IMG/VR virus record: IMGVR_UViG_3300025585_001602
Coordinates: 1-38,570 of that record
From: a virus
Strand: one strand, 5' to 3'
Length of the DNA: 38,570 nt
The stretch's first letter is position 1. The number at the start of each line of letters is the position of its first letter. Position numbers and translations under genes: made by a program. Under the pieces are notes generated by a model that was not told the origin of the DNA, searched no databases, and worked only from the letters and a program-made list of their open reading frames with translations. Of the stretch, positions 1 through 31,839 are shown piece after piece.

Positions 1-471
1 CAGTTCTCCCCATCGTATCAGGCGGGAGTAGACCGACGACACGATACTGCAAATCGAGTTGACGTAGCTCGGCTTGCGGTCCTCGGCGAGCATTGCCTTC
101 TGGAAGCGCGCGATGTCTACCGGCTGGACGGACGCCAGTGTTGGGCACCCTGTCACGCGCCAGAAGCACTCCCAGGCGCTTTTGTTGTGGTAAATGGTAC
201 GCTCAGAGGAAGATGTCTGGTGCTCCAGGTAGAAATCCCAAGCGTCATCGGGGGTGAAGTCCTTGACTGCCAAGTCGAGCGAGAACCGCGAGCGTAGCAG
301 CTCTACCGCGAGGGCGTCGCGAATTTCCTTGGCCAGCTTCGGGTCGGAAGTCTGTGTCGAGCGCATGATCTGCTTGCCGTCAACCCCGCGCCATTTCATT
401 GTCCAGAATTGACTACCCTTGCGCTTGAATAATGACACGCCGCGCTCTGCAATCTGCTTCTTTATCGCCAT
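1..471 (-). CDS. int: Tyrosine-type site-specific integrase, N-terminal part (C-terminus beyond the left edge)
   Basis: The visible 157 residues begin MAIKKQIAERGVSLFKRKG and continue with a short basic beta-strand region (FWTMKWRGVDGKQIMRSTQT), then a helical region from about residue 70 to 150. This is the layout of the arm-binding N-terminus plus SAM-like core-binding domain of phage tyrosine recombinases. The catalytic domain (R-H-R-Y) would lie outside the window, so catalytic competence cannot be judged. The ATG is supported by a GGAGGA ribosome binding site 6-8 nt upstream and a sigma-70 promoter at 497-526. The gene is transcribed away from the late operon end. Its presence implies a temperate phage that integrates by site-specific recombination. 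Call by fold pattern; no homology search was possible. Confidence 0.82.
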   Translation of the reverse strand, partial: MAIKKQIAERGVSLFKRKGSQFWTMKWRGVDGKQIMRSTQTSDPKLAKEIRDALAVELLRSRFSLDLAVKDFTPDDAWDFYLEHQTSSSERTIYHNKSAWECFWRVTGCPTLASVQPVDIARFQKAMLAEDRKPSYVNSICSIVSSVYSRLIRWGEL

Positions 472-496
472 GAATCGTCCTCCGCTTAGTCGATTC

Positions 497-526
497 ATGG
501 TAGCTTTGTGGTAGCAGGTCTGTCAA
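497..526 (-). promoter_or_regulatory. Sigma-70-type promoter of the integrase gene
   Basis: On the minus strand a perfect -35 TTGACA (526-521) is followed by an 18-nt spacer and TACCAT (502-497) as -10. The predicted start near 490 gives a leader of about 20 nt that contains the GGAGGA ribosome binding site of the integrase. The same -35, spacer length and -10 hexamer recur in front of the putative small terminase gene at 33548-33577. Confidence 0.6.
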
Positions 527-649
527 TTCAAATCGTTAAGTGTTGCGCAGCAACGACTTACATTGGTAAACACGGGAAACCTATTGTTGACGCAGTATAC
601 TTTACCCTATGTAAACACTGGATTTACATTTCAAATCGTACCTGATTTG
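527..649. promoter_or_regulatory. Palindrome-rich intergenic region between the integrase and the giant virion gene (operator or recombination-site candidate)
   Basis: The space from 472 to 674 holds no gene. It contains three inverted repeats: 537-560 (TAAGT/ACTTA arms with GTTGC/GCAAC inside and a one-base bulge), 609-629 (ATGTAAA, 7-nt spacer, TTTACAT, perfect) and 632-649 (CAAATC, 6-nt spacer, GATTTG, perfect). The 10-mer TTCAAATCGT occurs twice (527-536 and 630-639), and GTAAACAC occurs near 566 and 611. The first copy abuts the integrase -35 box. None of the palindromes is followed by a U-tract in either direction, so protein-binding sites (repressor, excisionase or integrase arm sites) fit better than terminators. 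Confidence 0.5.
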
Positions 650-674
650 AGTGCCATTTGGTAGCATATTGGTA

Positions 675-3600
675 TCAGTCGTTCGCCTTCATCTCCCTGA
701 TGATTGCCCTCGGAGTGGTCGCTTTTAGCTTCTCCTCGGGCGTACCGTAGGTCATGATCCAAATGTCCTTAAATCGCCTAAGTGCGTCCTCTATGCCGTA
801 TGTCTGTGTCAGCAGCTTTTCCTCTCTAAGCACAGGCGCCAGCTTGCGCCACACGGTTATTTTGTTAGCATCCTTCCCGGCAGACTCTACAGCATCCCGC
901 AAGACGCTTCCTAGACGCTCTGAGCGTGCAGCCTCGTCAGCCATCAGAGTAGACTTCTCCCTACGCAAACGCTGCTCCACACCCTTGTCAGAAGCTCTGA
1001 CATACCGACGCATGATCGGCCCAATGACCGGGACGCGCCCAATCTCATTGATCATGTCATCCTTCGTTTCGTCGCTAGAGAAGTTTATGACTGTACTGAA
1101 ATACTTGCGAGCCTCGTACTCCACTGCCTGCTTTACAGCCTCTGGCACTTCCCCGCGCATTGCTGGTGCGACCACGCCTGCGGCCATCGCTCCACGATCA
1201 ATGGCGGGCATGCCTCGGTAGGTATCATAGGGGCTCACGCCACTCGCAAGCAGCATCAAGTCCAGCATCATTGCTGGTAGTGGTGCCAGGCTATCAGGCT
1301 TTGCAGGTGCTTGGTTAATGGCGGTCCTGCCGATCTCGTCAATGTCGATTCGCTCGCCAAGAAGCGGGCGCGTGGTAGCCCATGCCAGCCCGCCAAAGAA
1401 GATGCCAGTGTGGTCAGAAGGTAGCGGGATGTAGGTTGGGGTGCCATCCTTAGTGAAACCGAGCGGGATGACAGTGTAATTCATCAGGTCGCTGTCAGGG
1501 ACGGTGTTGTAGAAGCGCTTCAACCAGTCCTCTTCCTCATCCAGCCCGAGCAAGTATCCAAGCATGCCCAACTGTAACCCGCGCATTAGCAGCTTGGGTG
1601 CAATGTCCACTGCGGCAACCTTGAACATGTAGGCTAGCTTCTGCTCCTTGGCCGCCTTGTAGGTAGACCGCAAACCTTGAATATTGATGTTAGAAAACAG
1701 GAACAGCCCGTTCATTGGCCTGCGCCAACGTCCACCGGCCAGCGCATCAGGTGTGCCAGCCATAGTGCGCACGCGCTCCGACACCCTCATGACGCCCTCG
1801 CGCTCAATGTAGCCCTCATTGATCATGCGGTAAGCGTTCGCCGCCTTGCTCCACCGCTCGAAAAACAGGTTCCACGTCTCGACGCCATCCTTTGCTTTCG
1901 TCAGCACGCGCAACAGTACATTCTTGTTGATGTTCTTCTCCCCTGCTAGTCCATGAATGTGGGCCATGCGCTCGACTTCCGTTTCGTAGTCGGCCTGATT
2001 GGCTGCGTCATAGGCAAGGTTGGGGATGAGCATGTTGTTCTTGTAGGCAAACTTGGTGAGCATAGTGGACTCACCTTTCACCGCGTCGATGTAGGCATCC
2101 TGCCACGTCCTGCGCAGGCTGTTGATGACCGGGATTGGGTTTACCCCTGGCGTGTTCTTGTAACCGGTCGCTACATCCTTCATGAAGGCAACCGGCCCAA
2201 AGCCGGGATTCCACGTCGTAAGCGACCTCCTGAACCACCCTGACACCCACATGTTTTGGACGATCTTGGTAAAGTTGTTCATCTCGACAAGGTTCGTCTC
2301 GTATGCCAGCGCGATGGCGCGGTCGATGATTACTGCTTGTAACTTCCCGTCGAGTGAGTACTTCATGAGTTGCTTTGTTGGGTCAGTTGGCTCCTTGTAG
2401 ACAATCTCCCCGCCACTCCTGCGCGACATCGGCGCGTCCTCTACTTCACCCAATTCCTTGCCCACATCAATGACAGTCATCTTTGCCTTGTTCTTCACCG
2501 CTTGCCGAATCAAGGCCATGTCCTTGAGCATAGTGGCGGTAAAAACGTTCTCGACCTCCTCGAACGTGCCGGTCTGCTGAAAGATTCTGCTGTTATCGGC
2601 ATTGGACTTTGTGGAGTAGAATTCCTCGATGTACTTGATCACATTGAACGTGGCGTAGTTCTCATTGTCCTCGATCATCTTCAACAGTTCAGGTGACAAC
2701 AATCGCGAACCGCGCAACTCGGGGAAGATGTACTCCTTGCGCAGATCGTAATACTCGTCTGCTGCCTTCTTGAGTGCTGCCATAGCCTCGGGACCATACT
2801 TTGCCTCCATATCCTTCATGCCCGTCTCTGCTTCTGGCTCAGTGACGCCCAACGGGTTGAAGAAGTACTTGCGCTCGGTTGACGTGCGCCGGAAGAACAT
2901 GTACAAGCCCAACTGATTCCCGTCCATTCCAAATTTTTTAAGGGGGTTCAGGACCATCTTGTGAATATCACGCTGAAACTGATGCTGTGTCGAGTTGATG
3001 TGCTTCATGTCGCGCAGCCACAAGTATGGGTCGAGTATTTCACTACCAGTACGATAGACAGCAGCCTGCTCGTCGATGAGTGTGATCTTCATGTCGCGCC
3101 AGAATTTCTGTACCTGTTCCCATAGGGGTGGGTTCTCGCGCTTGTTTTTGGCTTTGCGCTTTGCATCGCCAAGACGCTGCATCTCTTCGACACGATCCAC
3201 CACAGACTCGCTGTATTTTCCGTCGTGCAGTTCGGTCTGAATCTGCTCGTAGAGCGCCTTTACCTCGGGGTTGCGTTCGAGGTAGGCGAAGAATCCACGC
3301 GAGAATTCGGGTGCCTTCATCTTGAACGCCTGCGGATTATTCAGCAGGACAGACATCGCCTCGGCGTAGAGTTCTTTTGCAGAGTAGCGATACTGCGTGT
3401 ACTTCTCGTTATCGTTGGCGTCGAAGGGATTCCACCAATGCGTGAGCGCCTTGAGTTCGTCGCGCACGCCGGGGTAACTGACATCCCATGCGTCCATCAG
3501 CTTGGACTTGATTTTGTTCTCCAGCAAGAGGCCGCGATTCTCCGCTTCCTCGATGAGACGGTAGCGATAGTACGCAGAGGTGTAGAATCCCTTGCGGTCG

Positions 3601-6600
3601 TCGCCCTTCTCGAAGGGGCCATAGTCACGGGCGGCGTCGATGGCTGCTTCCTTGCGCCACTTCGCCCGCTCTTCTTTGGTGAACGGCTGCTCCAGCGATT
3701 CAGGCTCGGGCGCCATTGATGTCTTGAAGTGCCGTTGCAACTTTGCAATCCTGCCCAGCACGTTGCCGCGCGACATGGTTTCGTCTGGCAGGTAATCAAT
3801 GAGATGCCCTAGCTCGTGCGCCATAACGCGGCCAGCATAGTCTGGGTCGCGCAGGTAGGCGTTCATGACGTGTATGGTGCGATTGCCGGAGCGTTCGCGG
3901 TCAGTCGTGACAACCACCTGCTCAGGGTCAACGCCAAGCTCCTCGGCGACTGCATCGAGGAAGTCCGACTTCTCCTGCTCGTCGAACGGGGACTTGCTCG
4001 TCTGTTCTGCAACGCGCTCGCCGATGGCTAGATCTGCGCGAAGGCGAATCGTAGTGTCACCGACGCCGTGCATGAACACGCCCAGGCGCTCAGGCTTGCG
4101 TGGGAATCTCTTGACGACTTCGGGGTTCCTGCCGAGCAGCTTCTGAATCATACGGACCATGGCTGTCTGTGGGACGCGGTATGGGGTATCTCCCTCGTCA
4201 TCCGTGACTTGCTCGCGCGTTGGGCCGGAAGCGGGGTACTCGCTCCTATTGGCGTCAACCTTACCTGCGGCGCCGAAGGGGTTGATGGCTGCGCCACTGT
4301 TGCCGAGACGGCGGTATTCGATGGCGAACCGCTTGGCGTAGGCGCGCGCGTGCTCGCCGATGTCGCGGACTACTTTCGCGATGAAGTCTGTGGCGTTCTT
4401 TGCCGATTCATAGATGACTCGCAGGTGCGGCTTGGCGCGGTCGTAGGCGTCCTTGGAGAGCTTGGATCCCGCAGTGATGATTGCGCGCAATGCCTCCACG
4501 GGGTCAATGCTTGTTTCGGCTTTTTGTGGCCCTTGCCCCTTTTGGCGCCGAATGTCCGCGACCTGCTCCTCGATAGTTACAGGGCTACCATCGTTCATGG
4601 TTTGGACTGAGTTTGCCGGGAATCCAGATTCTACTCTCAGCTTTGAAGATTCGCTCTTCGCCCTTGCTCCGAGAGGGGCGAGAGGGGCGATCCCTTCTAT
4701 CGGTTTGCCTGTCAGCCTTTGATGGACAGCGCTTGCTGCTTCCGGGGAAACAACAGTCACCGATCCGTCTTGTGGAACAACGATCTTGATCGGGCGTTCC
4801 GGTGTCGCCTCTTCTGCGTGCTCACGCAACTGCTGCGCCACGTACTGTTCTTGGCTTGGCTTAAACCCGGTGGCCTCTTTGACCTTCTTCTTGTCTGCTG
4901 CGACAAAAGCCTCTTCTTCTGGCGTTGCGGTGACTACGACAGGTCGTGGCTTGCGGGACTCGCGAGCCTTTTGCAACGCTATATCAGCCCTCATTAGTTC
5001 GGCTCGCGCATCATCAACAGCTTTCTCAGCCTTGGCACGCGCTGCCTTGGACTTGCTGCGATAACGATTCGACTCGGCTTCTTTGACTTTTTGGCGCGCT
5101 TTGGTGCCCAGATCGAATAGGCGAGACACTTCCTCTTCTGTGGCAATGGGAGACTCAATCGCCTGTTCTGCTGGCTGTTGCATCTCTGTACCAGCCTGCT
5201 TCGCTACAGGGGTTGGTGAGGCGTCTTTCTCAGCAGGGAAGGTCTGTGTCACTTCTCGCTTCGTTACGCCAGCAGACTCTTTGGGGTCCGTGACCTGATC
5301 CACAACCGCTACCTTCATCCCATTATCGGTGGCAAACTTAACGTAATCCTCCAGCTTGCGCACAGGAAAGCCTGCCATGAGTGCTTCGCCGCGACGAGTC
5401 AAAGGGAGTCCCATGACATCTGCTGCTGTCTGAGCGTCCTCATAAAACAACTCATAAAAGTCGCCCATACGAAACATCAAAAGCGCGTCGCTTGCCTGCT
5501 CTTTCGCTTCGATGAATTGGCGAATAACCGGGGATGCTTTGGACTTGTCAATGTCGCGCCATGACGGAGTTGCCTCCTTGCCTGCGAAACTTTTCGGCTT
5601 GCCCTTGGCCTGCTGCTCGACCGGAATCGGAGATACCTCGGGCTTTCGATCTACCTTCGGGGCAAACCTTTTTCCCGAGAGCTGCTTGACTTGTCCCTTC
5701 AACTCCATGAGCGTTAGCGTAGTCAGGGCGTCTCGAACTGAGATCTTGTTAGCAAGAGCTACCTCATCAACAAAAGACCCCTCACTGGACAGCGACTTTA
5801 GAACACGAGCTTCTTTGTCGGTGACACTTTCAGATTCAGGCGCCCCCTCCGCCGCCTTCATCGCCTTCGTCGCCGCCGCCTTGGTCTTGTGCCCGAGTGA
5901 GAGCGTCTCGCCGTCGCGCTGAACCATCCACGTGCCGTCGTTGTCCTTGACGGTGGTCAGGGTGGGAGTAGTGACGGGCTGCTCGGTAGGTTTCGCATCC
6001 TTCCCCACCAGCCTGTCGAACGCCTTGTTCTGCCCCTCGGAGACCACAGGCTCGGCCTTGCCCTCGATGGCGGCGAGGTTCTGCGCGGCGGTCTGGAGCG
6101 TCTGGGTGCGGGATAAAGGTTGAGTGCTATTCTCAAGCCTTGCAGCTTGGTCTCTCATATCATGGATGCTTTGAGATAATGTGTCGCCTTTGTAGGCTAT
6201 CCACTCCCCACCAGATTCTTTCTGATATATAGTGAATCGATCTACAGGGGTCCCATCTTTGCGCCTAGCAACGTACTCTTTTGAACGCACCCCCATAGAT
6301 GGTTTGTCTTTGCCTTTAACGCCGCTCTTATCAGATACAGTGTCTAATGAGACTGGTACTCCTTTGTAAGACAATCCTCGCCTATCCTGTCCAGTCTGCT
6401 CGGAGGGTTGCGCGGCGGTCTGTAGCGCGGACTGGCGGGCGTCGGAGGCTTCCCTAAAGAACGCCATGTCCGAGACCTTGACGTATCCATCAGGCAGCTT
6501 CATGCCGAACTTCTCAAGATCGCGAACAGGTATATTCGCTCTTGCCTCTATGGCAGAAGTCAGTTTGGCAAACTCTCTTGCAGCCAAAGCTCCTTGCGAC

Positions 6601-9600
6601 ATTCCATCCCGTAGTGCCCCATTATAGGCTTGATCTTTTGGTGAAAGACCGCTTGGTAAATCCGGGAATGGTCCATCCGGTTTGCTTACACCAGACTCAA
6701 AACCTTTCTGAAACGCATTTCGCAAGACGTTTGTTTTGAAGCTGATTCTCGGTTTCCCAGTACCTTTTTGTGGAGCACCGGTCAGGAAAGCTATTGCGTT
6801 GCCAATGTGCTCAGGAGTCATTTGTGACTGCGCTGCTGTTGGTGAATCCTTCTCCCCGTACTTCGCCGCGAGGTCGGGGTAGTCGGCGAGGACGGCGGGC
6901 GGGACGGGCTGGCCGTCGCGGAGGGCTTGATTAACAAGTTCACGATGATATGGTTTGGCTATTTTTGCGTTGGCTCTTGCGGCAAACCCTCCTGACGCAG
7001 GAATGGCCGCAGACTGCTTAACAAACTCCTCCCTCGTCATCTCCCACGGCTGCTTCTGCGGAGCGGGTTCACTTCCCTCCGTGAGCCTGTCGAACGCCTT
7101 GTCCGGCTTGGCCTGCGCCGTGCCCGCGTCGATGTCCGCCATCTGCTTGCCAATGGTGTTCAGCAGGCCAGGGGTCTTGGATGGGGGCTGTGGTTGTTCA
7201 GCCGGGAACATCTCATTGAACGCATCCGAGATTTTCTGATTCCCCCCCATTTCCACGGCACGCCTGATAAGGTCTGGTGAAACTCCTTCCCTCTTTAGTG
7301 CGCGTAGCCACATTTCTGCGGCTGCATTTCGACCGTCACGGGCTTTCGTCACAAGATATTGAAGCATCTTCTTCGGTGTTACGTCACGAAAACCCTTTTC
7401 GCGTTGCCTCGCATCAAGCCCCTTAACTAGCAGCCGGTTCTTGGTTTCGCGGGTTGTGCCAAAGAAGGTGGGGAACACCTTGCGATCGGCCACGAGGTTT
7501 TTGTCCTTTTCAACGGACTCTAGCAGCGCAGTCAGTTTCGGTGCTATTTGGCGCGCCTTCTCAGGATTCGTGATACGGTCAACGTTGAATTCAGCGATGA
7601 TCTCATCGGCGGAAAGCAGGTAATTAAAGAAGCGCACATCAGCATTTTTTGTTGAACTGACAGTCTCGCGCAAACCGGGATAAAGGGACTGCTCAATAGC
7701 CTGCAATTCCGCAAGCACAACGGGGTCGCTGTTGACCTTATCCCCAAGCAGCGAGTGTGAAGCATGACCTAGTTCATGCGCGAGCACGCGCCCCCGATCT
7801 ACACCCTTCACGCTACTACTGATCGCCACCCCGCCGTGAAAGTGTGCGCCAAGCCACGATGGAGACCACAGCGACTTCACGTTGGATATGGACGCACCGT
7901 AGGCATTCGATACCCGCTCGTTCATATCCTCGGGCAAATCTATTTCCTGCCTCTGATAGCCGATAGCCTCAAATCTCTTTTTCGACCGATCTTTGTCGAG
8001 AATGTTCCCTTCTTCTTTCCCTCCAGAAACCGAGTTGAACCCACCTTTCTTTACCACCAAGTCTGGTACGCTGCGAGCGTTCTGCAAGCTGGGCTGCGAC
8101 GGTGGAGAGAATTCAACCTGCTTCTCAAGAGTCTCGTTGAACTTGTCCGTTTGTTCGATTACGGGCAAGGAATCTGCTTTGTTGCCCTGCGGTTTAGGAA
8201 GGACACCGGGCGTGGGGGCGGGCAACTGTCCAGCATTGCTGGACAGTTCAGGTGCGGCAGTCTTGGAGGGGGGGGATGGTTGTTCATCTCGGTTGAGTTC
8301 AAAGACACGACGCGCTCTGGTGGCCCTATCTCTTGCTTGGTTAGCCTTTTCGCGAAGGGTTTCAAGAATCGACTGATACTTCGGGTGATCTTGTTCAACC
8401 CCAGGCACCTGCCGTTCGGCACTTGCGGCATCTGCTTCAATTTGCTCCACCAACACTGTAGCTACATCTTCGCGTCCCATATCCAACGCTGTTTTTATTC
8501 CAAGGAATCCTGCTGTCTCCCCACCGTCAACACTGGTCCCCCCGGAAATTCCAACCAGACCTAACAATATTTCTAAGGGTGACGCTTCACTTCCAAGAAT
8601 TTCACCTCTACCAAAACGCTCATCTTGAATTGCCTCCTTCTCATCAAGAATCGCATCACGACGCTGTTTCAGCGTGGGTGCCCCCTGCGGTTCAGGAAGG
8701 GCACCGGGCGTGGGGGTAGTGAAGGGTGAAGAACCTTCGGGCGAACGAAGATCTGGGTAAAGTACATCGACCGAATCACCGGGTTCCCTTGTTCCATACG
8801 AGAAACCGTCCACCCGAGAAGTGTCGAACTCAGAATCCATCCGTTGTCGCGCTACCGTGCTCGCGTCCATCGCTTCTTGGTGCGTATAGAACGGGCCAGC
8901 AACAGGGCGCATGGCATTATCAGGGTTAGCCGAACGGGCGAACACATAGATGTCCTTGCCCCGCGCTTCTGCTGGGGTATTAACTCTGCCCTGCTTCCTG
9001 TTTGCGATCTTTTCGATACGCGCCTTTGCTGCACGGGCCTTCTCGTTTAGCGGCTCCCAATAAGTCTTGTTTTGAGCATTCGAGTAGGCATTGCTACCAT
9101 AAATGACATTACCTTCGGGGTCAGACCAAGCAGCTTCCCCTGTATTGAATCTTGCTTTACGAATCCTATCCCTTGTGGCGTACAGGTCATCCGTAGACAT
9201 GCGCGAGTATCTGGCAATCGCGTTGTCTCGATACTGCTGCGGAGTGTCAGCGATCATCTCCAGAACAACGTCTGGCACATCTTTGCGGCCAACGACATTG
9301 CCATCGCGAAGGAACTCGATCCTTAGACCGCTCTCGCTCGAATCTGCTTCCCATATCCTGAACGACTCATTTGCTGTTGCCTGAGAATTGGACGGCGTAG
9401 CTTCCTGCCCAGTAGTCAAGTCATCCTTGACAACTGCCTGCTCGGGCTGCGGTGCTGGCATCTTCCAACTGTCTTGTGCAGCCTTTAAGGATTCATTGCC
9501 ATCCTGAAATTCTTTAGTCTGAGCAAGGCGATCCATTGCCCCCTTGTCGGGAGTGCGATAGCCTTGGTCGGCCATTTCTCTTAGCGCATCTTCCGCTGAG

Positions 9601-11876
9601 TTATAGGTCTGGTGTCCAGACAACCCACGCCTGTCGAAAATCTGCAATCGGAATTGTCCAGGTTTCCCACTCATTTCAGGGACCAATACCGCCCACCGTG
9701 TACCATCACTGTTGGACGCCTCGACGCCCACATGCTTGCCACCATTTGATTCCAGCAGGCGCTCTTGAGTGAGGGCTTTCCGCTTGCTGTAGAGCTTCGA
9801 CGCACCAACCAGGTCTTGTTGATTAAGTGCTGACTCGATTGCGCGATTTAGTTCTTTATCTTCGGCGTCGAAATCTCTTGCAGTAGGCTCAACCGGCTGC
9901 GGCCTGCGCATCATCTGCTGTCCCGGCTGCGCTTGCCCGGTAAACGTCTTGATCGGAATTGGATCACGTTTGGTACCCGATTCCGGCGCGGGTTGGATCG
10001 CTTCTGGCTGGGTTTCCCGCTTCGCCATCTCGCGCTCAATCGCCGTGCGCACGGGCTTCGTCATGCCACCCTGCTCCAGCATCGACTGCAACTGCTCGGT
10101 GGGCATGTCGGCGTAGACTAGCTTGACCTTGCCCTTGGGCTGCTCAGGCTGGACCGGCTGCTGCTCTGGCGCAACTACCTCGGGGTTGGCCTCGGCTACC
10201 ACGGGCTGCTCCTGCATCGGCGAGGCAATCGGCTGCTCGGCGGCGGGGACAGGGCTCACACCTGCCACCGTGCTCCAACTCGGCGCGTCCTGCATCTCGC
10301 GACCAGCTTCGCGAATTCCCTGCGCGGCTGCATCGCCGAAGTCCGATACAACAGAGTCGCGCACGCCTCGGCCAATATCCGGCGCTCGCGATGCACCAAT
10401 GCTCAGGCTGGTTTCCAGCGCCAGGTTAAGCCACTGCTTCACGTAGTCGCCGGTCGTCATCTTCTCGCCGACGTTGCTCATCTGCGCGTCAGCAGTCTGC
10501 AAGGCCCACGTGATCGTCTCTTCGGGCAGTTCCTCGCCATACGCGAGCAAGGTGCGCTTCAACGCGGGCGCTAGGCTCGTCTTTACCGTCTTCACTGCTT
10601 CTGGCGAGATAGCCGTGAAGGGGAGTTTCTCAAGGCCGGGGAGTCCTGCTGCTTGGAAAGCACCCATGACGGCGCCCTCATAGAGCGACTGACGGCGGGC
10701 GTAGTTCACCAGTTCCTCGCCCTGCAATCCAGATGCCTGACCTTGACGCAAGCCGTCGTCGTAGGTCGTCGTCATCATTTGCGCCATGATGGCCGGGAAA
10801 CCGCCAACGGCGCCAGAGACGCCCGACTGGATGAGGGTAGACGCGGCATTCTGTGCGGCGGGGCGCAATACCTGCCCGATAGGTCCAAGGTTCTGCTTGT
10901 CTGTCTCGGTGGATACTTCGGAGAGTAGCGACTTGTCGGCTGCAATCTGGTCGGCAGTCTTGCGGTCGCTCATGGCCGTGGCCAGTGTCGTCCCGAAAGC
11001 CATGCCAGCATCGAGGGCACCACCAGCGACAACGCGCTTGGCTGCATTCCCTTCGGTGGCTGCGCTTGTCACCGCCTGATTGAATCCTCGCTCCAGTCCA
11101 CTCGGGGGAGTCGTGGGGTTCATCGTGTCGAGCGTTACTTGCGCTGCATCTCCCAGCACGTTGAACGGCGGGATTTGCGTGATGCCCTTCGTCATCGTCT
11201 GCACTGCTGCGACAGGGAATGCTGCCGCCTCACTCATCGCATTGCCAAGTTCGGCGGGCGTAGCGAGACGTTCTTGCGCTTTGGCGTCCCCGATGGCCGC
11301 GAACATGCCGCGCTCCTGCGGGGCGAACGCTGCGGGGTTGGGCGCCTGGTCGAGCGTGATGGGCTTCTGTTGCCCGATGCCCATGTATTCCTTGACGCGC
11401 TGCTTGTACTGGACTGTCTCGTTGGGCAGGGGCTTGCCTGCATCCACGTTGCCCATGCCGAAGTTGTAATACTCCAGCGCCTTGTCAATGTCGTTACCAG
11501 AGCGCTCCAAGAGGCTCTTGATGTAGCGCACGCCGCCGTCGATGTTCTGGTCAGCATCGAAGGGGTTTACGCCGAGTTCCTTCGCCGTGGCCGGCATAAG
11601 CTGCATGACACCGACAGCGCCTGCCGGGGAGACGGCCTGCGGGTTATTGTTGGACTCAGCGCGCGCCATGGCCATCGCCAGCGAGGGGTTGACGTTGTGG
11701 CGCTTCGCGGCCTCGTAGACCTTCAAAGGCACTTCGCCATGCTGCTGCGCGAACTGGGCGCGCGTCATGCGCACGGGCTGCTGTGTCGGCGCTGCTGGAG
11801 CGGCTGTGGGCGCTGGGGGCTCTTGCCCGAATTGCTGACGGTACTGCTCGCGCGTCATGCGGATAGGCTCTGCCAT
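675..11876 (-). CDS. Giant 3,733-residue polyvalent virion (ejected) protein: lytic transglycosylase, two zincin-like domains, DprA-like winged helix, MutS domain I-like, LPD38-like C-terminus
   Basis: Residues about 50-165 form an SLT-type lytic transglycosylase (ARAESNNNP with likely catalytic E74; GAVGVMQLMPATA; ALEYYNFG), which would open peptidoglycan during DNA entry. HELGH motifs at 1367-1371 and 2687-2691, each with a later Glu-containing helix, mark two zincin-like metallopeptidase domains. Residues about 2018-2072 resemble the DprA winged helix (ELKGQVKQLSGKRF). Residues about 2115-2210 match MutS domain I, including the Phe-X-Glu in RMGDFYELFYEDA (F2140, E2142). The C-terminal ~800 residues, with TTWNPGFGPVAFMKD, resemble large polyvalent protein-associated domains (LPD38 type). 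RMTR-type motifs recur at 6-9, 36-39 and about 1610. Long Pro/Glu/Gln-rich linkers join the parts. The start ATG shares one base with the preceding TGA. It is the last gene of the late operon, after three putative ejection proteins. Domain names rest on motif recognition only. Confidence 0.85.
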   Translation of the reverse strand: MAEPIRMTREQYRQQFGQEPPAPTAAPAAPTQQPVRMTRAQFAQQHGEVPLKVYEAAKRHNVNPSLAMAMARAESNNNPQAVSPAGAVGVMQLMPATAKELGVNPFDADQNIDGGVRYIKSLLERSGNDIDKALEYYNFGMGNVDAGKPLPNETVQYKQRVKEYMGIGQQKPITLDQAPNPAAFAPQERGMFAAIGDAKAQERLATPAELGNAMSEAAAFPVAAVQTMTKGITQIPPFNVLGDAAQVTLDTMNPTTPPSGLERGFNQAVTSAATEGNAAKRVVAGGALDAGMAFGTTLATAMSDRKTADQIAADKSLLSEVSTETDKQNLGPIGQVLRPAAQNAASTLIQSGVSGAVGGFPAIMAQMMTTTYDDGLRQGQASGLQGEELVNYARRQSLYEGAVMGAFQAAGLPGLEKLPFTAISPEAVKTVKTSLAPALKRTLLAYGEELPEETITWALQTADAQMSNVGEKMTTGDYVKQWLNLALETSLSIGASRAPDIGRGVRDSVVSDFGDAAAQGIREAGREMQDAPSWSTVAGVSPVPAAEQPIASPMQEQPVVAEANPEVVAPEQQPVQPEQPKGKVKLVYADMPTEQLQSMLEQGGMTKPVRTAIEREMAKRETQPEAIQPAPESGTKRDPIPIKTFTGQAQPGQQMMRRPQPVEPTARDFDAEDKELNRAIESALNQQDLVGASKLYSKRKALTQERLLESNGGKHVGVEASNSDGTRWAVLVPEMSGKPGQFRLQIFDRRGLSGHQTYNSAEDALREMADQGYRTPDKGAMDRLAQTKEFQDGNESLKAAQDSWKMPAPQPEQAVVKDDLTTGQEATPSNSQATANESFRIWEADSSESGLRIEFLRDGNVVGRKDVPDVVLEMIADTPQQYRDNAIARYSRMSTDDLYATRDRIRKARFNTGEAAWSDPEGNVIYGSNAYSNAQNKTYWEPLNEKARAAKARIEKIANRKQGRVNTPAEARGKDIYVFARSANPDNAMRPVAGPFYTHQEAMDASTVARQRMDSEFDTSRVDGFSYGTREPGDSVDVLYPDLRSPEGSSPFTTPTPGALPEPQGAPTLKQRRDAILDEKEAIQDERFGRGEILGSEASPLEILLGLVGISGGTSVDGGETAGFLGIKTALDMGREDVATVLVEQIEADAASAERQVPGVEQDHPKYQSILETLREKANQARDRATRARRVFELNRDEQPSPPSKTAAPELSSNAGQLPAPTPGVLPKPQGNKADSLPVIEQTDKFNETLEKQVEFSPPSQPSLQNARSVPDLVVKKGGFNSVSGGKEEGNILDKDRSKKRFEAIGYQRQEIDLPEDMNERVSNAYGASISNVKSLWSPSWLGAHFHGGVAISSSVKGVDRGRVLAHELGHASHSLLGDKVNSDPVVLAELQAIEQSLYPGLRETVSSTKNADVRFFNYLLSADEIIAEFNVDRITNPEKARQIAPKLTALLESVEKDKNLVADRKVFPTFFGTTRETKNRLLVKGLDARQREKGFRDVTPKKMLQYLVTKARDGRNAAAEMWLRALKREGVSPDLIRRAVEMGGNQKISDAFNEMFPAEQPQPPSKTPGLLNTIGKQMADIDAGTAQAKPDKAFDRLTEGSEPAPQKQPWEMTREEFVKQSAAIPASGGFAARANAKIAKPYHRELVNQALRDGQPVPPAVLADYPDLAAKYGEKDSPTAAQSQMTPEHIGNAIAFLTGAPQKGTGKPRISFKTNVLRNAFQKGFESGVSKPDGPFPDLPSGLSPKDQAYNGALRDGMSQGALAAREFAKLTSAIEARANIPVRDLEKFGMKLPDGYVKVSDMAFFREASDARQSALQTAAQPSEQTGQDRRGLSYKGVPVSLDTVSDKSGVKGKDKPSMGVRSKEYVARRKDGTPVDRFTIYQKESGGEWIAYKGDTLSQSIHDMRDQAARLENSTQPLSRTQTLQTAAQNLAAIEGKAEPVVSEGQNKAFDRLVGKDAKPTEQPVTTPTLTTVKDNDGTWMVQRDGETLSLGHKTKAAATKAMKAAEGAPESESVTDKEARVLKSLSSEGSFVDEVALANKISVRDALTTLTLMELKGQVKQLSGKRFAPKVDRKPEVSPIPVEQQAKGKPKSFAGKEATPSWRDIDKSKASPVIRQFIEAKEQASDALLMFRMGDFYELFYEDAQTAADVMGLPLTRRGEALMAGFPVRKLEDYVKFATDNGMKVAVVDQVTDPKESAGVTKREVTQTFPAEKDASPTPVAKQAGTEMQQPAEQAIESPIATEEEVSRLFDLGTKARQKVKEAESNRYRSKSKAARAKAEKAVDDARAELMRADIALQKARESRKPRPVVVTATPEEEAFVAADKKKVKEATGFKPSQEQYVAQQLREHAEEATPERPIKIVVPQDGSVTVVSPEAASAVHQRLTGKPIEGIAPLAPLGARAKSESSKLRVESGFPANSVQTMNDGSPVTIEEQVADIRRQKGQGPQKAETSIDPVEALRAIITAGSKLSKDAYDRAKPHLRVIYESAKNATDFIAKVVRDIGEHARAYAKRFAIEYRRLGNSGAAINPFGAAGKVDANRSEYPASGPTREQVTDDEGDTPYRVPQTAMVRMIQKLLGRNPEVVKRFPRKPERLGVFMHGVGDTTIRLRADLAIGERVAEQTSKSPFDEQEKSDFLDAVAEELGVDPEQVVVTTDRERSGNRTIHVMNAYLRDPDYAGRVMAHELGHLIDYLPDETMSRGNVLGRIAKLQRHFKTSMAPEPESLEQPFTKEERAKWRKEAAIDAARDYGPFEKGDDRKGFYTSAYYRYRLIEEAENRGLLLENKIKSKLMDAWDVSYPGVRDELKALTHWWNPFDANDNEKYTQYRYSAKELYAEAMSVLLNNPQAFKMKAPEFSRGFFAYLERNPEVKALYEQIQTELHDGKYSESVVDRVEEMQRLGDAKRKAKNKRENPPLWEQVQKFWRDMKITLIDEQAAVYRTGSEILDPYLWLRDMKHINSTQHQFQRDIHKMVLNPLKKFGMDGNQLGLYMFFRRTSTERKYFFNPLGVTEPEAETGMKDMEAKYGPEAMAALKKAADEYYDLRKEYIFPELRGSRLLSPELLKMIEDNENYATFNVIKYIEEFYSTKSNADNSRIFQQTGTFEEVENVFTATMLKDMALIRQAVKNKAKMTVIDVGKELGEVEDAPMSRRSGGEIVYKEPTDPTKQLMKYSLDGKLQAVIIDRAIALAYETNLVEMNNFTKIVQNMWVSGWFRRSLTTWNPGFGPVAFMKDVATGYKNTPGVNPIPVINSLRRTWQDAYIDAVKGESTMLTKFAYKNNMLIPNLAYDAANQADYETEVERMAHIHGLAGEKNINKNVLLRVLTKAKDGVETWNLFFERWSKAANAYRMINEGYIEREGVMRVSERVRTMAGTPDALAGGRWRRPMNGLFLFSNINIQGLRSTYKAAKEQKLAYMFKVAAVDIAPKLLMRGLQLGMLGYLLGLDEEEDWLKRFYNTVPDSDLMNYTVIPLGFTKDGTPTYIPLPSDHTGIFFGGLAWATTRPLLGERIDIDEIGRTAINQAPAKPDSLAPLPAMMLDLMLLASGVSPYDTYRGMPAIDRGAMAAGVVAPAMRGEVPEAVKQAVEYEARKYFSTVINFSSDETKDDMINEIGRVPVIGPIMRRYVRASDKGVEQRLRREKSTLMADEAARSERLGSVLRDAVESAGKDANKITVWRKLAPVLREEKLLTQTYGIEDALRRFKDIWIMTYGTPEEKLKATTPRAIIREMKAND

Positions 11877-13006
11877 CAGTCAATGATCTCCACTAATTGC
11901 CCGTTCGGTGCTTTGATGATGTTCGATGTGGTGGCGGCGCCGGGGGGAGTGCCCAGCGGTGCGTTCATGTTTGCGGTGCCAGACTGGACGGTGCGAAGGC
12001 GTTCCATGGCGCGCTGAACGACGGCGGGAAACTCTGCGGGATCCATCATTCCACCGAGTTCCTGATTGACGACGTTGTTGATCTCGCGGTTCAAGTCGGC
12101 AGGCTTGATGCCGGAATTCTCGATCTCCTTTGTGGAGAAACCGGGAGGCAGGGTGAAGGGCACCAACTGATTGTTCTCGACGTAGTGCGGGCGCCCTTGC
12201 TCGTCGGTGATGACCTGACGGCGCTGCGAGTTCTGCGCAGGCTTGGGAAGCTCCATCGTCTCTACCTGTCTCGTGCTGGGGTTGATGACGTTCTGCACGT
12301 AGCGCCCATCGGCTGTCTGGTACGGGCTGCCCACCTGCTGCCAGTTCACCTTGTCACCGTCACCCTGAATGATGGTCTGCGGCTGGCCAAGCATCTTGCC
12401 GGTGGGGTCCACCTGCACCTGCATGATGGAACCGTCTGGCCCGGTGATCTTTTCCCACGTGTTAGAACCGGCCTTTGAGACGCTGATGACTGGCTCGCCC
12501 GTGTTCGGGTCTGGGCGTGTCCAGATCCAGTCGCCGGTTTTCGGGTCTTGCTTGACGGTCCCTTCGAGCTTGTTCTGCTTGTCCTTCGCGTCCTGCCGTG
12601 CGTTCTCCGCTTCCTGCTGCTGTACCTGAAACTGCTGCTGCTGCCCTTGCTGTGACATGGCGAATTCTCGTGCCGCCTGAGTTTCCTTCGCGCGCGCTGC
12701 ACGCTCCACCTGCGCCTGATACGCCTGCTGGTTCACCTCGTTGGTGCGCTGCACGCGGTCCAGTAGCGCTGTCGTCTGGTCGGGCGCGAGGCCAATGACG
12801 CTGGAACCGCTCACACTCGCGGGCGTCGGCGCAGTCGGCTGACTCGTGACGTGCTCGGCAAGCCCCATGATGGCCGTGATCGGGTTCGTGGCGAAGTTCT
12901 TGCGGTACTGACGGCGCTGGAAATCGTCGTGAATATCCTGCTCCGTCACCCCGTCATCGTAGGTGGCTGTCTCGCCGAGCGAACGGAAATTGACAGTGAT
13001 GGCCAT
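11876..13006 (-). CDS. Putative internal virion/ejection protein with Gln-rich coiled coil
   Basis: This 376-residue protein has no recognised catalytic motif. Residues about 75-155 are rich in Gln, Ala, Arg and Glu (QQGQQQQFQVQQQEAENAR), which predicts a long helix or coiled coil. The middle has repeated beta-type WxxxxGPDGS and DPTGKMLGQPQ segments, and the C-terminal 90 residues are helical. A strong ribosome binding site (AAGGGGGTGAT) precedes the ATG, and the TGA overlaps the giant gene's ATG by one base. Its place between other internal proteins and the giant transglycosylase protein is that of podovirus core/ejection proteins. Role inferred from position. Confidence 0.65.
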   Translation of the reverse strand: MAITVNFRSLGETATYDDGVTEQDIHDDFQRRQYRKNFATNPITAIMGLAEHVTSQPTAPTPASVSGSSVIGLAPDQTTALLDRVQRTNEVNQQAYQAQVERAARAKETQAAREFAMSQQGQQQQFQVQQQEAENARQDAKDKQNKLEGTVKQDPKTGDWIWTRPDPNTGEPVISVSKAGSNTWEKITGPDGSIMQVQVDPTGKMLGQPQTIIQGDGDKVNWQQVGSPYQTADGRYVQNVINPSTRQVETMELPKPAQNSQRRQVITDEQGRPHYVENNQLVPFTLPPGFSTKEIENSGIKPADLNREINNVVNQELGGMMDPAEFPAVVQRAMERLRTVQSGTANMNAPLGTPPGAATTSNIIKAPNGQLVEIID

Positions 13007-13015
13007 ATCACCCCC

Positions 13016-14098
13016 TTATTGGTAGTCGAACGTGCCCGCGCCGGTCGGGAGTAGCTTGCCCATACCGCCACCACCTGCAACAGACTGTACGCCCGAGCCG
13101 ATTGCGAGCCCCATCAGCGCTTTCTGCAATCGCGACTTGAGCATGTCACCACGTTGCGGCATGCCTTCGTAGCCCTGCCCGCGCATCACCTTCTTCATGT
13201 CACGAGGAAGTGCTGCGGCCTGCTCTGGCGTGAGCGAACCGCCCTCGCTCATGTACTTGTAGAGAAGTTGCTTGTCTGTATCCGAGAGCTTCTTCGCCTC
13301 TTCGGGCGTCATCGTGGAGAAATTCTTCGAGCGTAGTGCGTTGCGCTGGCCGTCTGCGCCCGGTGCGCCCATGGTCTGCCCTGGGCGCTTTGGAGACGAC
13401 ACGTCACCCGTGTAGGCGTCTTTGCCACCCGTGACAAATCCGCCCGCCGCGCCGATGAGCGGGGCGTACTTCATCAGGTCCGCCATGCCGTTACCGCCAG
13501 CCATGAGAGACTGCGCGTCGGCTACTGCCGGGGCTGCAACACTGGACGCCATGGGAGACGGTACGTTGGCCGTGGCCTGCGTCGAGAGGTCGCCGATGGT
13601 GAACGGTGCGCCGTCTGCGGGCGAGGGGCCAGACGCCATGGGAGAGATGGTGGGTTTCGCATTGGGGGCTGTCGGATTGATTGGCAACTGATTGGGTACT
13701 GTGCCTTGTGCGGGGTTAAAACCTTCCACGCCGTCTGCCTTCGCCTGCCCCATGTACCCAGATACACCAGCAGTAGCCACCGCGCCGGGATCCACGCCGC
13801 CGCCGTCCACTGCGCCACCTGCCGCCGTGCCTGCCATGCCGCCAAGCGAAGCACCCACAGGCCCGCCGAACATGCCGCCAACCACCGTGCCAGCCATCGG
13901 GAGAATCTTGCTGGCAAGGCCGTTCTTTTTCTTGGCGTCCTTCTCGGCTTTCTTCTGCGCCTCTGCCTGTGTGGCAGACTGGCCAGAGCCGATCAGCGAC
14001 TGCATGTAGGCGTTCATGCCAGGATTGAATGCCGTGCCTTGTTGCCCTTGCTGGGCGAGCAACGTTGAAAGCTGCGCCAGTTTGAGTACATCAGCCAT
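13016..14098 (-). CDS. Putative internal virion/ejection protein with Gly/Ala-rich membrane-active segment
   Basis: 360 residues. A charged Lys/Ala helix (about 45-60) is followed by a Gly/Ala-rich hydrophobic stretch (about 63-110; TVVGGMFGGPVGASLGG) with glycine-zipper spacing. Such segments often insert in membranes, as expected of a protein that helps form an ejection channel. The centre is Pro/Ala-rich and probably disordered, and the C-terminus ends with a second Gly-rich segment (VAGGGGMGKLLP). The ATG has a good AAGGAGAC site 6 nt upstream. It lies between two other predicted internal proteins. No sequence family was recognised beyond this composition. Confidence 0.65.
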   Translation of the reverse strand: MADVLKLAQLSTLLAQQGQQGTAFNPGMNAYMQSLIGSGQSATQAEAQKKAEKDAKKKNGLASKILPMAGTVVGGMFGGPVGASLGGMAGTAAGGAVDGGGVDPGAVATAGVSGYMGQAKADGVEGFNPAQGTVPNQLPINPTAPNAKPTISPMASGPSPADGAPFTIGDLSTQATANVPSPMASSVAAPAVADAQSLMAGGNGMADLMKYAPLIGAAGGFVTGGKDAYTGDVSSPKRPGQTMGAPGADGQRNALRSKNFSTMTPEEAKKLSDTDKQLLYKYMSEGGSLTPEQAAALPRDMKKVMRGQGYEGMPQRGDMLKSRLQKALMGLAIGSGVQSVAGGGGMGKLLPTGAGTFDYQ

Positions 14099-14110
14099 GT
14101 TAAGTCTCCT

Positions 14111-15109
14111 TTACAGCAGCAGTGCGCCGCCGATTGCTTGAAGTGCGCCAAGTCCGATGCCAGCCTCGGCGCTACCCATGGCCATGCCGCCCTGAATGCC
14201 TGCTGAGGCTGAACCTGTGATGAGCGACATCAGGCGTTCACCCTTGGTCTGCGAGCGATTTACCACCTGCGCGCCGTAGAGTGCGCCGATGCTGGAGAAG
14301 CCATACTCTTGCAGGATGTTCATGTCCCACGTGATGTGCTTGATGAGGTACTCCAGATCCTTTTCCTTCTGGTCCTGCTTCGCTGTGACGTGGATCTTGG
14401 CGCGGTCGAGAGACATCGCAACGAATGCGCGGTTGGCGTCCAGCTTCGCGCCGGATGCCTGCACTGCCGCCTGAACAAGCTGGGCCTGCGCAGTAAGTTG
14501 CTCGTTGCGCCACTGGAATCGGAGCTTGGCGTCATACTCGCGGTCGGCCAGAAGGCGCGCGCGCCCGAGCAATGCCAGCTTGCCGATGGTCTGCGTCGAG
14601 AGGATTGCGCCCGCCGTCCACAGCCCCGTCAGCGTGTCCGTGACTGCCTTCTGGTATTCGATCTTGGTGCGCTCCTGATAGGCCGTGACGGCTGCGGAGA
14701 TGTTCTCTTCGGGAATGAGTGAGTCGATGTTGGCACGCGCCTGGGTGACAGCCTCGCGCACAACCTCGGCCGCGTCGTAGTTGCGAACGGCGTCTTGAAA
14801 TTCCTGAATGGCGACGGTGACATCGGCGAGCAGCGTGTCGGGGTCGTAGGCCGTCATGTTCTCGTAGGGCGAACCACCAACCTCGGAGCCTGCCGCATAC
14901 AGCAGGTCCATCATGTTGAAGTTGCCCGACACAAGATCACCCGTGCCGCTTTCGTCGTTGCCAAAGAAGTTGTCCACATTGGACCACGTGGTAACAGATG
15001 CTGGGTCGATGTTAAACGCAAGCGACGCCCAAGCATTCATCACGTGAACTTCGTATCCGCTAGGCGGGGTTCCCGCTGCCTGAGATGCCCATTCTTTGAG
15101 TCCACCCAT
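14111..15109 (-). CDS. Putative helical internal virion/ejection protein
   Basis: 332 residues when started at MGGLKEWASQ, whose ATG lies 2 nt after the TAA of the upstream gene with GGAG about 11 nt upstream; a longer in-frame opening exists but would overlap that gene. Residues about 95-280 are almost entirely helical and rich in Ala, Gln, Arg and Glu. The last 45 residues are Gly/Ala-rich and hydrophobic (SAGIQGGMAMGSAEAGIG), like membrane-active tails. It is the first of four consecutive predicted internal proteins ending with the giant transglycosylase protein, a grouping typical of podovirus core proteins. No specific family recognised. Confidence 0.65.
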   Translation of the reverse strand: MGGLKEWASQAAGTPPSGYEVHVMNAWASLAFNIDPASVTTWSNVDNFFGNDESGTGDLVSGNFNMMDLLYAAGSEVGGSPYENMTAYDPDTLLADVTVAIQEFQDAVRNYDAAEVVREAVTQARANIDSLIPEENISAAVTAYQERTKIEYQKAVTDTLTGLWTAGAILSTQTIGKLALLGRARLLADREYDAKLRFQWRNEQLTAQAQLVQAAVQASGAKLDANRAFVAMSLDRAKIHVTAKQDQKEKDLEYLIKHITWDMNILQEYGFSSIGALYGAQVVNRSQTKGERLMSLITGSASAGIQGGMAMGSAEAGIGLGALQAIGGALLL

Positions 15110-15111
15110 GA

Positions 15112-15654
15112 TTACAACTCCACTGTGTAGCGGAACGTGCAGGACGCTCCAAGCATTTTGGCGATGGCGTTGATGGCCTTGTTGTCGGGAGTTGAGTCGA
15201 ACTGGAGATGCGTGCAGCCAAGCGACTTCGCGTGAGGAATCAGGTATCCCTGCGCTGCCTTTGCCCACGCTTCCGGTGTGACATTGTTCGCCATCAGGAG
15301 CGCGTTGATGTAAAAGAGCTTTTCCGCGCCAGCCGTGGTCAACTGTGCAGTAGCCACCCCGGCTTTCTGTCCGTTCGGTGCAAGCAACCAGTAGGCACGG
15401 AGCGCGCCAGTCTTTAGCGCTGTTGCTAGATGCGAAAGCACGGTGCCGCTAATCTGCGAATCGGGGATGACTTGGGAGAGCATGGACAGCAGGATGCGCT
15501 GCGTTACCTCGCGGCCACACTCCTCGGGGGTAATGAGTCGAACGTCGAGATGCTCAAGCCCCTTCTGCGGGGGCTGTTGCCCCTCGACGATAGGCTCGGT
15601 GCTCGGCGTTGTATCGGACGAAAACTCCTTGGAGAGAGTAGCCTGTTCCAACAT
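15112..15654 (-). CDS. GNAT-like phage protein in the tail cluster
   Basis: About 180 residues starting MLEQATLSKEF, with AAGGGGA upstream of the ATG. After a disordered 30-residue N-terminus, the alternation of strands and helices (GALRAYWLLAPNGQKAGVATAQL; LFYINALLMA; LIPHAKSLGCTHLQFDS; NKAINAIAKMLGASCTFRYTVEL) resembles a Gcn5-type acetyltransferase core, including the terminal beta-bulge region. A clear acetyl-CoA pyrophosphate loop (Q/RxxGxG/A) is not evident, so it may be a structural GNAT-fold protein. The start overlaps the end of the upstream tail gene by 101 nt in another frame, which is unusual here. No better start with a ribosome binding site was found. Confidence 0.55.
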   Translation of the reverse strand: MLEQATLSKEFSSDTTPSTEPIVEGQQPPQKGLEHLDVRLITPEECGREVTQRILLSMLSQVIPDSQISGTVLSHLATALKTGALRAYWLLAPNGQKAGVATAQLTTAGAEKLFYINALLMANNVTPEAWAKAAQGYLIPHAKSLGCTHLQFDSTPDNKAINAIAKMLGASCTFRYTVEL

Positions 15655-17107
15655 TTCCCGTCCCCTTGATGGTTGGCCGGAAGTCGTTCGAGCTTCGCTT
15701 GGGGAAAGCAACGCCATCCGAGTTAATGGATTCCGCCGCTGGGAATAACGAGTAAGCCTCGGTGGCGCCATCACGGGCGTACATCTCGACTTGCACGTCA
15801 TCCAATGACTCATAACTGACCTCGACGACTGTAGTGGCTTTGGTGCCTCGATGGTTCATATCGTTCTGGTGAAGCTGGAATTCGACGTTTACTTCGTCTT
15901 GACTGTCAAGCCCAATCCCAGTTCCTCGCAGGACACCATTATACCGGAAAACTCCTGTTGGGCATACAGTCATCGGACCACCAAGTCGATTCTGTTGCGT
16001 CAAGACAAAACATGTATCTGCGTCGGAGATCCAGTAGTCGCCAACTTCGGGGTCGTGACTGATGACCGGCGAGGAAAGACCGCTCAGTTTGTGGCGCCAT
16101 CCGAGCGGGTCGCCGATGCCTTGCCCCAGCACCCAGCGATACAGGTCGCCAGTTTTCGATAGCCATACCGTGTCGCGTTCAACGCCACATGCGGCACCCC
16201 GGCTGGCGACTTGCGTCTCGCGAACGAGACTTCCGACATAGCCTGGGCCACCTTGCTCGGGAGTGAACTCGTAGAGTGCGCGGTCGCCGAACGCGAGGAT
16301 GCGATTGCCCTGAGAGACTATGACCTGTGGCGTACCACCACGGCGCATGCTGGCAAAGCCGATAGCGCCTGCCTCCACCAACCCGCGAAGAACGCCTTCC
16401 ACCTTGTCGAATGCAGTGTTGCCATAGCAGCCGAGGGCCGTGAGCAGAAGCTGATACGGGGCCGAAACGTCGCCACCGATAGGCTCGCCATACACGATCC
16501 AGCGGTCGCTCCACGTCTGCAAGTCGTGCGTGAAATGCTTCTTGCGCGCGCGGAAGGTGTTGAACAGCGACTGGAATCGCGTACCACTGAACCATGAACC
16601 ACCAAGCCCGCCAAGCACGAGGCGGTCGTAGTGCATGCCGATGGTCTTGCACGTGATGGGCGTCATGATCTGCGTGTTCTTCGTGCCGTTGGTGTTGCGC
16701 GGGAGATTGCCCACGAGGTTAAGGCCATCGCAGGCGAACCACACGTCTTCTGCCGATGCTACCTGCCAGTAGTCGCCACCAGAGGCGAGCGATGTCGCCG
16801 TCGCGTTGTCGGCGCTGTCGTACAGCGTCAGGGCCGTCTTGGCGTTGTTGGCGGGGTTTACCGTGCTGATGCCGCTGCTTTCGAGTAGCAACATGGTCTG
16901 GTCGCCATAGAACAGGCGCGTGCGCGGCCATGTGGCCGTGACAGAGACTCCCTCAGTGATGTGCTCAGGGTTGGTTGCACAGCCTGCCAGTGCGCGAGGT
17001 ACGAGATTCGCCATGGTCTGCGCAAACGGTGCGCCTGCGGGCACGTGCTCATGCGGCACAATCCCGTTCGTCAGCGCTTCCTGAATCTCGAAGGCGTACT
17101 CACGCAT
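15554..17107 (-). CDS. Tail protein, third of three tandem paralogues
   Basis: 517 residues, mostly beta-rich, with repeated short hydrophobic strands and many Gly, Asp and Trp (DVWFACDGLN, RWIVYGEPIGG, GDLYRWVLGQG, VGDYWISDADTCFVLTQQ). It shares with the two genes upstream an opening of the form AP(F/Y)-x-Q-x-M-x-N-L and the motif Y-W-x-x-D-x-D-x-x-F-x-L near residue 360. The pattern suits a beta-propeller-like tail nozzle or tail-tube protein of a short-tailed phage. The ATG overlaps the previous stop by 8 nt. Function inferred from gene order (adaptor, then tail proteins) and fold pattern. Confidence 0.65.
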   Translation of the reverse strand: MREYAFEIQEALTNGIVPHEHVPAGAPFAQTMANLVPRALAGCATNPEHITEGVSVTATWPRTRLFYGDQTMLLLESSGISTVNPANNAKTALTLYDSADNATATSLASGGDYWQVASAEDVWFACDGLNLVGNLPRNTNGTKNTQIMTPITCKTIGMHYDRLVLGGLGGSWFSGTRFQSLFNTFRARKKHFTHDLQTWSDRWIVYGEPIGGDVSAPYQLLLTALGCYGNTAFDKVEGVLRGLVEAGAIGFASMRRGGTPQVIVSQGNRILAFGDRALYEFTPEQGGPGYVGSLVRETQVASRGAACGVERDTVWLSKTGDLYRWVLGQGIGDPLGWRHKLSGLSSPVISHDPEVGDYWISDADTCFVLTQQNRLGGPMTVCPTGVFRYNGVLRGTGIGLDSQDEVNVEFQLHQNDMNHRGTKATTVVEVSYESLDDVQVEMYARDGATEAYSLFPAAESINSDGVAFPKRSSNDFRPTIKGTGNVGTGYSLQGVFVRYNAEHRAYRRGATAPAEGA

Positions 17108-19034: not shown

Positions 19035-19038
19035 GGGT

Positions 19039-31763: not shown

Positions 31764-31839
31764 TGGTAGCGGGAATCGGACTTGAACCGATGGCCTGCGG
31801 ATTATGAGTCCACTGCTCTGCCAACTGAGCTATCCCGCG
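31764..31839 (-). tRNA. tRNA with CAU anticodon (Met or lysidine-modified Ile2)
   Basis: 76 nt including an encoded CCA. D arm GCTC/GAGC, anticodon stem GTGGA/TCCGC with loop CTCATAA (anticodon CAT), T arm ATCGG-TTCAAGT-CCGAT, acceptor pairs 2-7 GCGGGA/TCCCGC, discriminator A. Position 1 is C opposite T at 72, a mismatch. The anticodon stem lacks the three G-C pairs of initiator tRNA. The GACTCATAATC context and the variable/T region look closer to Ile2 (AUA-reading after lysidine modification) than to elongator Met, but this needs TilS-determinant analysis. It is encoded within the late operon. Confidence 0.88.

Follow-up and report, generated by a model that had tools for sequence, protein, structure and literature searches.

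The best explanation for the giant gene of the virus record analysed here (38,570 bases, hereafter the window) is that it encodes an ejected polyvalent protein composed of a conserved delivery frame and an exchangeable early-infection cargo, whose MutS-I domain and winged helix would act on the incoming DNA, a reading that we hold with moderate confidence. It derives from the comparison with a relative that has the same protein ends and synteny but a different middle, from the step in GC3 at the borders of the middle, from the recurrence of the C-terminal frame in other phages, from the absence of cysteine, from the presence of the comparable protein gp69 of Burkholderia phage JC1 in virions, and from the retention of the F-x-E motif in orphan MutS-I domains.

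The original prediction, made from the letters of the window, described a single gene of 11.2 kb occupying 29% of it, and this is borne out by one uninterrupted ORF (11,202 of the 38,570 bases) that begins with ATG, contains no internal stop, and overlaps with its ATG the stop codon of the upstream gene by 1 base. The position of the gene, its homology and its lack of cysteine suggest that it is a virion gene. The predicted N-terminal transglycosylase, winged helix and MutS-I domain were each recovered in the HMM search above the curated Pfam cut-offs, and the two predicted zincin-like domains were found by motif scan as HELGH at residues 1367 and 2687, each followed by a glutamate motif that is invariant in the aligned relatives. 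Both zincins thus conform, at the motif level, to zincin-like metallopeptidases (HExxH plus a later Glu), and no Pfam family exceeded its cut-off for either; sub-threshold hits around HExxH (M27, M3, M64) were mere motif matches and were left unused. The features of the giant gene are the following:

675-11876, minus strand: giant ORF, 3,733 aa, 411.6 kDa, 0 cysteines
9990-11876, minus strand: N-terminal frame, residues 1-629, homologous to the syntenic relative from residue 29
11442-11714, minus strand: SLT lytic transglycosylase domain, residues 55-145 (Pfam PF01464, E 1.3e-20)
4575-9989, minus strand: exchangeable cargo region, residues 630-2434, no homology to the middle of the relative except short linkers
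7185-8222, minus strand: mobile zincin-1 module, residues 1219-1564, with HELGH at 1367 and an E1425/E1429 motif
6819-6947, minus strand: short linker common to the giant of the relative, residues 1644-1686 (63% over 43 aa)
6000-6068, minus strand: short linker common to the giant of the relative, residues 1937-1959 (74% over 23 aa)
5670-5843, minus strand: DprA-type winged helix (DprA_WH), residues 2012-2069 (PF17782, E 8.8e-7)
5241-5531, minus strand: MutS domain I (MutS_I), residues 2116-2212 (PF01624, E 1.3e-25)
5451-5459, minus strand: Phe2140-Tyr-Glu2142, aligned with Phe36 and Glu38 of Escherichia coli MutS
5301-5303, minus strand: Val2192, in a column that is Cys in 9/9 cellular MutS compared
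678-4574, minus strand: C-terminal frame, residues 2435-3733, homologous to the syntenic relative and to Pelagibacter phage Baldr
3804-3818, minus strand: HELGH of zincin-2, residues 2687-2691, with the partner E2835/E2839 (alignment A8)

The syntenic relative is an IMG/VR contig of 50,261 bases (IMGVR_UViG_3300037508_000928, G001), which has an uninterrupted ORF of 4,687 aa at the position corresponding to the giant of the window. The two proteins are 57% identical over residues 29-629 and 64% identical over residues 2435-3733 of the window's giant, and most of the surrounding virion genes are 47-86% identical with gene order kept; the few exceptions include 13016-14098 and 23376-24113, which match only over parts, and gene 29997-30881, which reaches only 24% identity. 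Outside the short linkers, for which a linker peptide had no match in phages, the middles of the two giants share only weak stretches of 24-27% in an unfiltered search, and the slot that holds zincin-1, the winged helix and MutS-I in the window is occupied in the relative by a DarB-like methylase-helicase, 33-36% identical to DarB-like antirestriction proteins over about 1,400 aa among the matches listed and matched by 117 of 50,697 phage records. The methylase-helicase dyad is absent from the window in Pfam and NCBIfam scans, which places its giant outside the DarB-like proteins proper. This was the only relative found to be conserved at both ends of the giant, which counts against the best explanation.

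The middle of the window's giant is foreign in codon composition, with a GC3 of 0.555 for residues 630-2434 against 0.724 for both ends (0.754 in the N-terminal frame) and 0.68-0.84 for eight other genes of the window. None of 20,000 block permutations reached the difference between middle and ends, and among 74 circular shifts it was reached by the true position alone. The giant of the relative has GC3 values of 0.742 and 0.723 at its ends and of 0.565-0.666 in its middle.

Several new domains had also been anticipated between the recognised ones, and for residues 1219-1564 this proved right, in the form of a mobile zincin module that occurs in other phages; for residues 640-1200 and 1565-2010, which in part resemble linker sequence, the searches of IMG/VR gave no relative apart from short linkers. 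The zincin-1 module is 53% identical over about 350 aa to parts of otherwise different giants (L019-L021), 45% identical to a further locus (L022), and 30% identical (E 9e-7) to the morphogenesis protein of Xanthomonas phage Elanor. In Elanor (L024), the protein bearing the zincin-1-like domain lies at 1648-5241 and adjoins the portal gene. The HExxH and the later E..AE-type motif are invariant in the five rows of alignment A7, and three giants carrying the module gave no Pfam match when scanned. A structure model of zincin-1 (pLDDT 58.5) had no match in the PDB at E<=0.001; its first five ranks, at E 0.06-0.63, are zincins, including anthrax lethal factor, PprI and PPEP-3, which is no more than consistent with a zincin fold.

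The C-terminal frame recurs in further phages. An alignment search with it retrieved nine IMG/VR loci (the syntenic relative and eight further records), and by tblastn it was found in Pelagibacter phage Baldr (25% over residues 2683-3490, E 1e-30); two scans of genome contigs gave no match to this part. In the ten rows of alignment A8 the zincin-2 motif HE[LI]GH and the later EL[YM]AE are invariant, the conservation of the latter being partly due to selection since the search patterns for these loci included the later E..AE motif. When four giants with this frame were scanned against Pfam, two had no match at all, one (L027) had a sub-threshold LPD38 (E 0.0068), and one (L028) had PBECR3 at E 5.4e-18. 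The latter is a phage protein of 2,783 aa (L028:4321-12669) with the same C-terminal frame and the PBECR3 RNase domain in its middle.

An LPD38-like C-terminus had been proposed, and this is supported only distantly: PF18857 has no match at E<=10 in the window's giant, which is therefore not assigned to LPD38, yet a profile comparison of the frame with the C-termini of phages JC1, VvAW1 and a Desulfofustis phage, the three of nine comparison records that PF18857 does match, gave 96.8% and E 3e-10 over 475 columns. A plain HMM search with the frame was weak (Desulfofustis E 1e-4, JC1 E 0.008, VvAW1 0.17, the best shuffle reaching 0.02), and a two-row profile did not link the frame to a further set of DarB-like C-termini, those of PEp14, SopranoGao and POI1126 (3.4%). 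Homology of the frame to N4 virion RNA polymerase (vRNAP; residues 1951-3008 compared) or to T7 gp16 was considered and none was detected, which counts against the best explanation. A structure model of the frame had a mean pLDDT of 44 and was left unused. Both zincins had been expected to act on host proteins; zincin-2, however, sits in the conserved frame of every aligned relative, and a part in packaging or in processing of the giant itself is no less likely for it than host targets.

Phe36 and Glu38 of E. coli MutS read mismatches, and the MutS-I domain of the window, which finds the solved E. coli protein with a phmmer E of 1.1e-17, has both residues in place. Matches to MutS-I occur in 27 phage records, of which eight hand-chosen ones comprise three full MutS and five orphan domains, and in 55 plasmid records, of which eight were examined (H53, H34, H43, H45, H48, H33, H54, H32); H53, an Acinetobacter plasmid in which the match lies next to an IS1 transposase and no MutS is annotated, was left out of the count. 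The F-Y-E motif is kept in all seven orphan MutS-I rows (six distinct sequences, window included), and the cysteine of the V2192 column in five of the seven, the exceptions being the window and L040. Domains II-V and the ATPase of MutS are absent from the giant, where PF01624 alone matches; the protein is thus no MutS, and the isolation of domain I from clamp, ATPase and connector counts against the best explanation, as does its lack of the five-residue loop of the E. coli domain. ArdC-N is likewise absent, which separates the window from the ArdC-N type of MutS-I protein. In a tree the window's domain falls, with weak support, closest to two MutS of Alphaproteobacteria; the orphan labels need three changes, and a single origin appeared in 0 of 200 bootstrap trees. 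Given the weak support and the long branch of the window's domain (1.62), independent capture is likely though not proven. Two residue changes considered as a signature of shared orphan ancestry were discarded, as a Bacteroides MutS has both too. No relative of the MutS-I region of the giant was found in IMG/VR, and a search of the literature for phage proteins with MutS-I turned up no paper besides PMC5512222.

The complete absence of cysteine points to ejection. The 21 other genes of the window contain 77 cysteines in 7,668 aa, from which 37.5 would be expected in the giant. The three genes directly before it (11876-15268) are free of cysteine throughout their 1,121 aa (hypergeometric 5e-6, for a set chosen after the counts) and are likely partners of an ejection complex. 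Genes at the same position before the giant are likewise cysteine-free in JC1 (gp67/gp68), PEp14 (24-26) and SopranoGao (7-9). The neighbouring genes needed here and below are:

11876-13006, minus strand: candidate co-ejected protein, 376 aa, no cysteine, directly upstream of the giant and 52% identical to that of the relative
13016-14098, minus strand: candidate co-ejected protein, 360 aa, no cysteine
14111-15268, minus strand: candidate co-ejected protein, 385 aa, no cysteine
25674-27725, minus strand: portal protein (PHROG 156, E 7.8e-6)
27710-29434, minus strand: large terminase (PHROG 38, E 4.5e-38)
1-498, minus strand: integrase fragment (PHROG 1, E 3e-12)

Among 23 giants and fragments, which are kin and not independent, 15 lack cysteine and the total is 12 in 65,985 aa. 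The ejected proteins T7 gp15 (747 aa), T7 gp16 (1,318) and N4 vRNAP (first 3,008) have none, and T7 gp14 and gp6.7 have one each, in 196 and 88 aa. T7 gp9 (0/307), N4 gp56 (0/401) and N4 gp57 (0/405) are also cysteine-free virion proteins and are not known to be ejected, so that the signature is not exclusive to ejected proteins, a point that counts against the best explanation. For N4-like vRNAPs, passages of PMC3715699 and PMC3915230 explain the lack of cysteine by passage through the tail or periplasm. An extension of this signature to DarB-like giants was not found in the literature, as judged mostly from listings, and PMC5512222 nowhere contains the word 'cysteine'; so extended, the signature would offer a cheap marker of ejected proteins in raw genomes.

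Compared with known systems, the giant finds its best place among the polyvalent proteins, a class described by Iyer et al. 2017 (PMC5512222), and has the anatomy of the DarB-like podophage giants. Transfer into the host together with the DNA, a further trait of the class, is suggested only indirectly, by the lack of cysteine and by the likeness to the virion protein JC1 gp69. Disparate domains in one polypeptide (SLT, MutS_I, DprA_WH and two HExxH zincins) and a phage late-gene location (portal, terminase, syntenic virion block) are both present, and lysozyme-type, zincin and MutS-I domains also occur in polyvalent proteins in such a context. Their MutS-I domains are described in that paper from Bacteroidetes and Firmicutes lineages, about 80% with ArdC-N, in which the window differs, as it does in its weak affinity to alphaproteobacterial MutS. 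With the DarB-like giants (JC1 gp69, VvAW1, PEp14) it shares the very large last virion gene, HExxH, the absence of cysteine and a distant C-terminal homology, as well as an SLT-type N-terminus, described for JC1 gp69 (PMC9144972) and indicated for PEp14 by local similarity; it differs in carrying zincin-1, winged helix and MutS-I instead of the methylase-helicase and in having no detected LPD38. JC1 gp69 (SLT, methylase-helicase, LPD38) was identified by mass spectrometry in CsCl-purified virions, according to the same source. N4 vRNAP, of similar size and also cysteine-free, has a comparable three-part anatomy, with an N-terminal injection part, a middle cargo and a C-terminal HExxH part needed for encapsidation (PMC5512222), whereas the window has no T7-like RNA polymerase domain and the frames have no detectable homology. 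T7 gp16 shares the N-terminal lytic transglycosylase (profile match 81%, E 1.2e-5) and the lack of cysteine, but has 1,318 aa and a C-terminal part unrelated at this sensitivity; MutS shares domain I with its Phe-x-Glu, domains II-V and the ATPase being found only in MutS.

In the best explanation, the giant would be packaged in the head and ejected with the DNA, its N-terminal 630 residues opening the peptidoglycan locally through the SLT domain, for which homology is clear and activity presumed. The earlier proposal of peptidoglycan cutting followed by cytoplasmic action agrees with how polyvalent and DarB-like proteins are known to work and with the lack of cysteine. For the last 1,300 residues, which include zincin-2, roles in packaging, transfer and self-processing would be the most likely; the need of the HExxH-bearing part of N4 vRNAP for encapsidation suggests a similar role here, by analogy only. 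The middle (zincin-1, winged helix, MutS-I) would be foreign cargo. Since the relative has a DarB-like methylase-helicase in the same slot, the module of MutS-I and winged helix most likely binds the phage DNA as it enters, or host proteins that work on this DNA, within minutes of the start of infection. More tentatively, a cysteine-purged MutS-I, captured separately from the Bacteroidetes cases, may replace the DarB-type module and shield distorted or single-stranded entering DNA, or host repair intermediates, from host nucleases and repair.

Alternatively, the cargo may act on the host, competing with MutS or marking mismatched or recombining DNA, and so loosen mismatch repair and favour phage recombination or mutation; the clear derivation of the domain from MutS and its retained mismatch wedge agree with this, but nothing of MutS past domain I is present, a genetic link to repair is lacking and the molecules per virion would be few against host MutS, and we regard it as unlikely. 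Less likely again is a mainly structural function as packaging aid, in which winged helix and MutS-I, both of them DNA-binding folds, would hold the giant, itself probably packaged in the head along with the DNA, on that DNA and have no role in the cell. In relatives the frame is combined with very different middles that bear enzymes, so that holding DNA is not what the middles have in common. The giant might instead be a tail protein, or resemble a tape-measure protein, and bear a cell-wall enzyme without being an ejected effector, but this seems improbable: such proteins often contain SLT domains and the best PHROG hits of the giant are tail and lysis proteins, whereas the protein is cysteine-free, its conserved ends enclose DarB-like, PBECR3 or MutS-I middles, and its gene is the last of the virion block, as in JC1.

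Polyvalent proteins, and MutS-I within them, are already known from PMC5512222. New, as far as seen, are a MutS-I in an SLT-zincin frame without ArdC-N, its direct replacement by a methylase-helicase in a closely syntenic phage, and the loss of a cysteine kept by all nine cellular MutS compared. The two phages form a natural cargo-swap pair, in which the same virion block and protein ends carry an antirestriction enzyme or a MutS-derived DNA reader; such a pair allows the delivery frame to be told apart from its cargo and opens the role of orphan MutS-I domains to testing. PLxRFG is absent from the giants of both the window and its relative.

The window as a whole, with its terminase, portal, DnaB-like helicase and integrase fragment, probably belongs to a temperate phage of the short-tailed type, and its positions 1-20000 had no near DNA match among phages. 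A second IMG/VR contig of 20.5 kb (L003), in which the giant gene region is absent, has a 100% identical terminase and seems to represent this phage species in a different sample. Upstream of the giant, genes 15554-17107 and 17100-19070 look like tandem paralogues, each matching both copies of the relative (25-29% across), and the ORF at 15112-15813 is 62% identical in the relative, yet overlaps each neighbour by >150 bases. A tRNA-Met gene lies at 31764-31839 on the minus strand.
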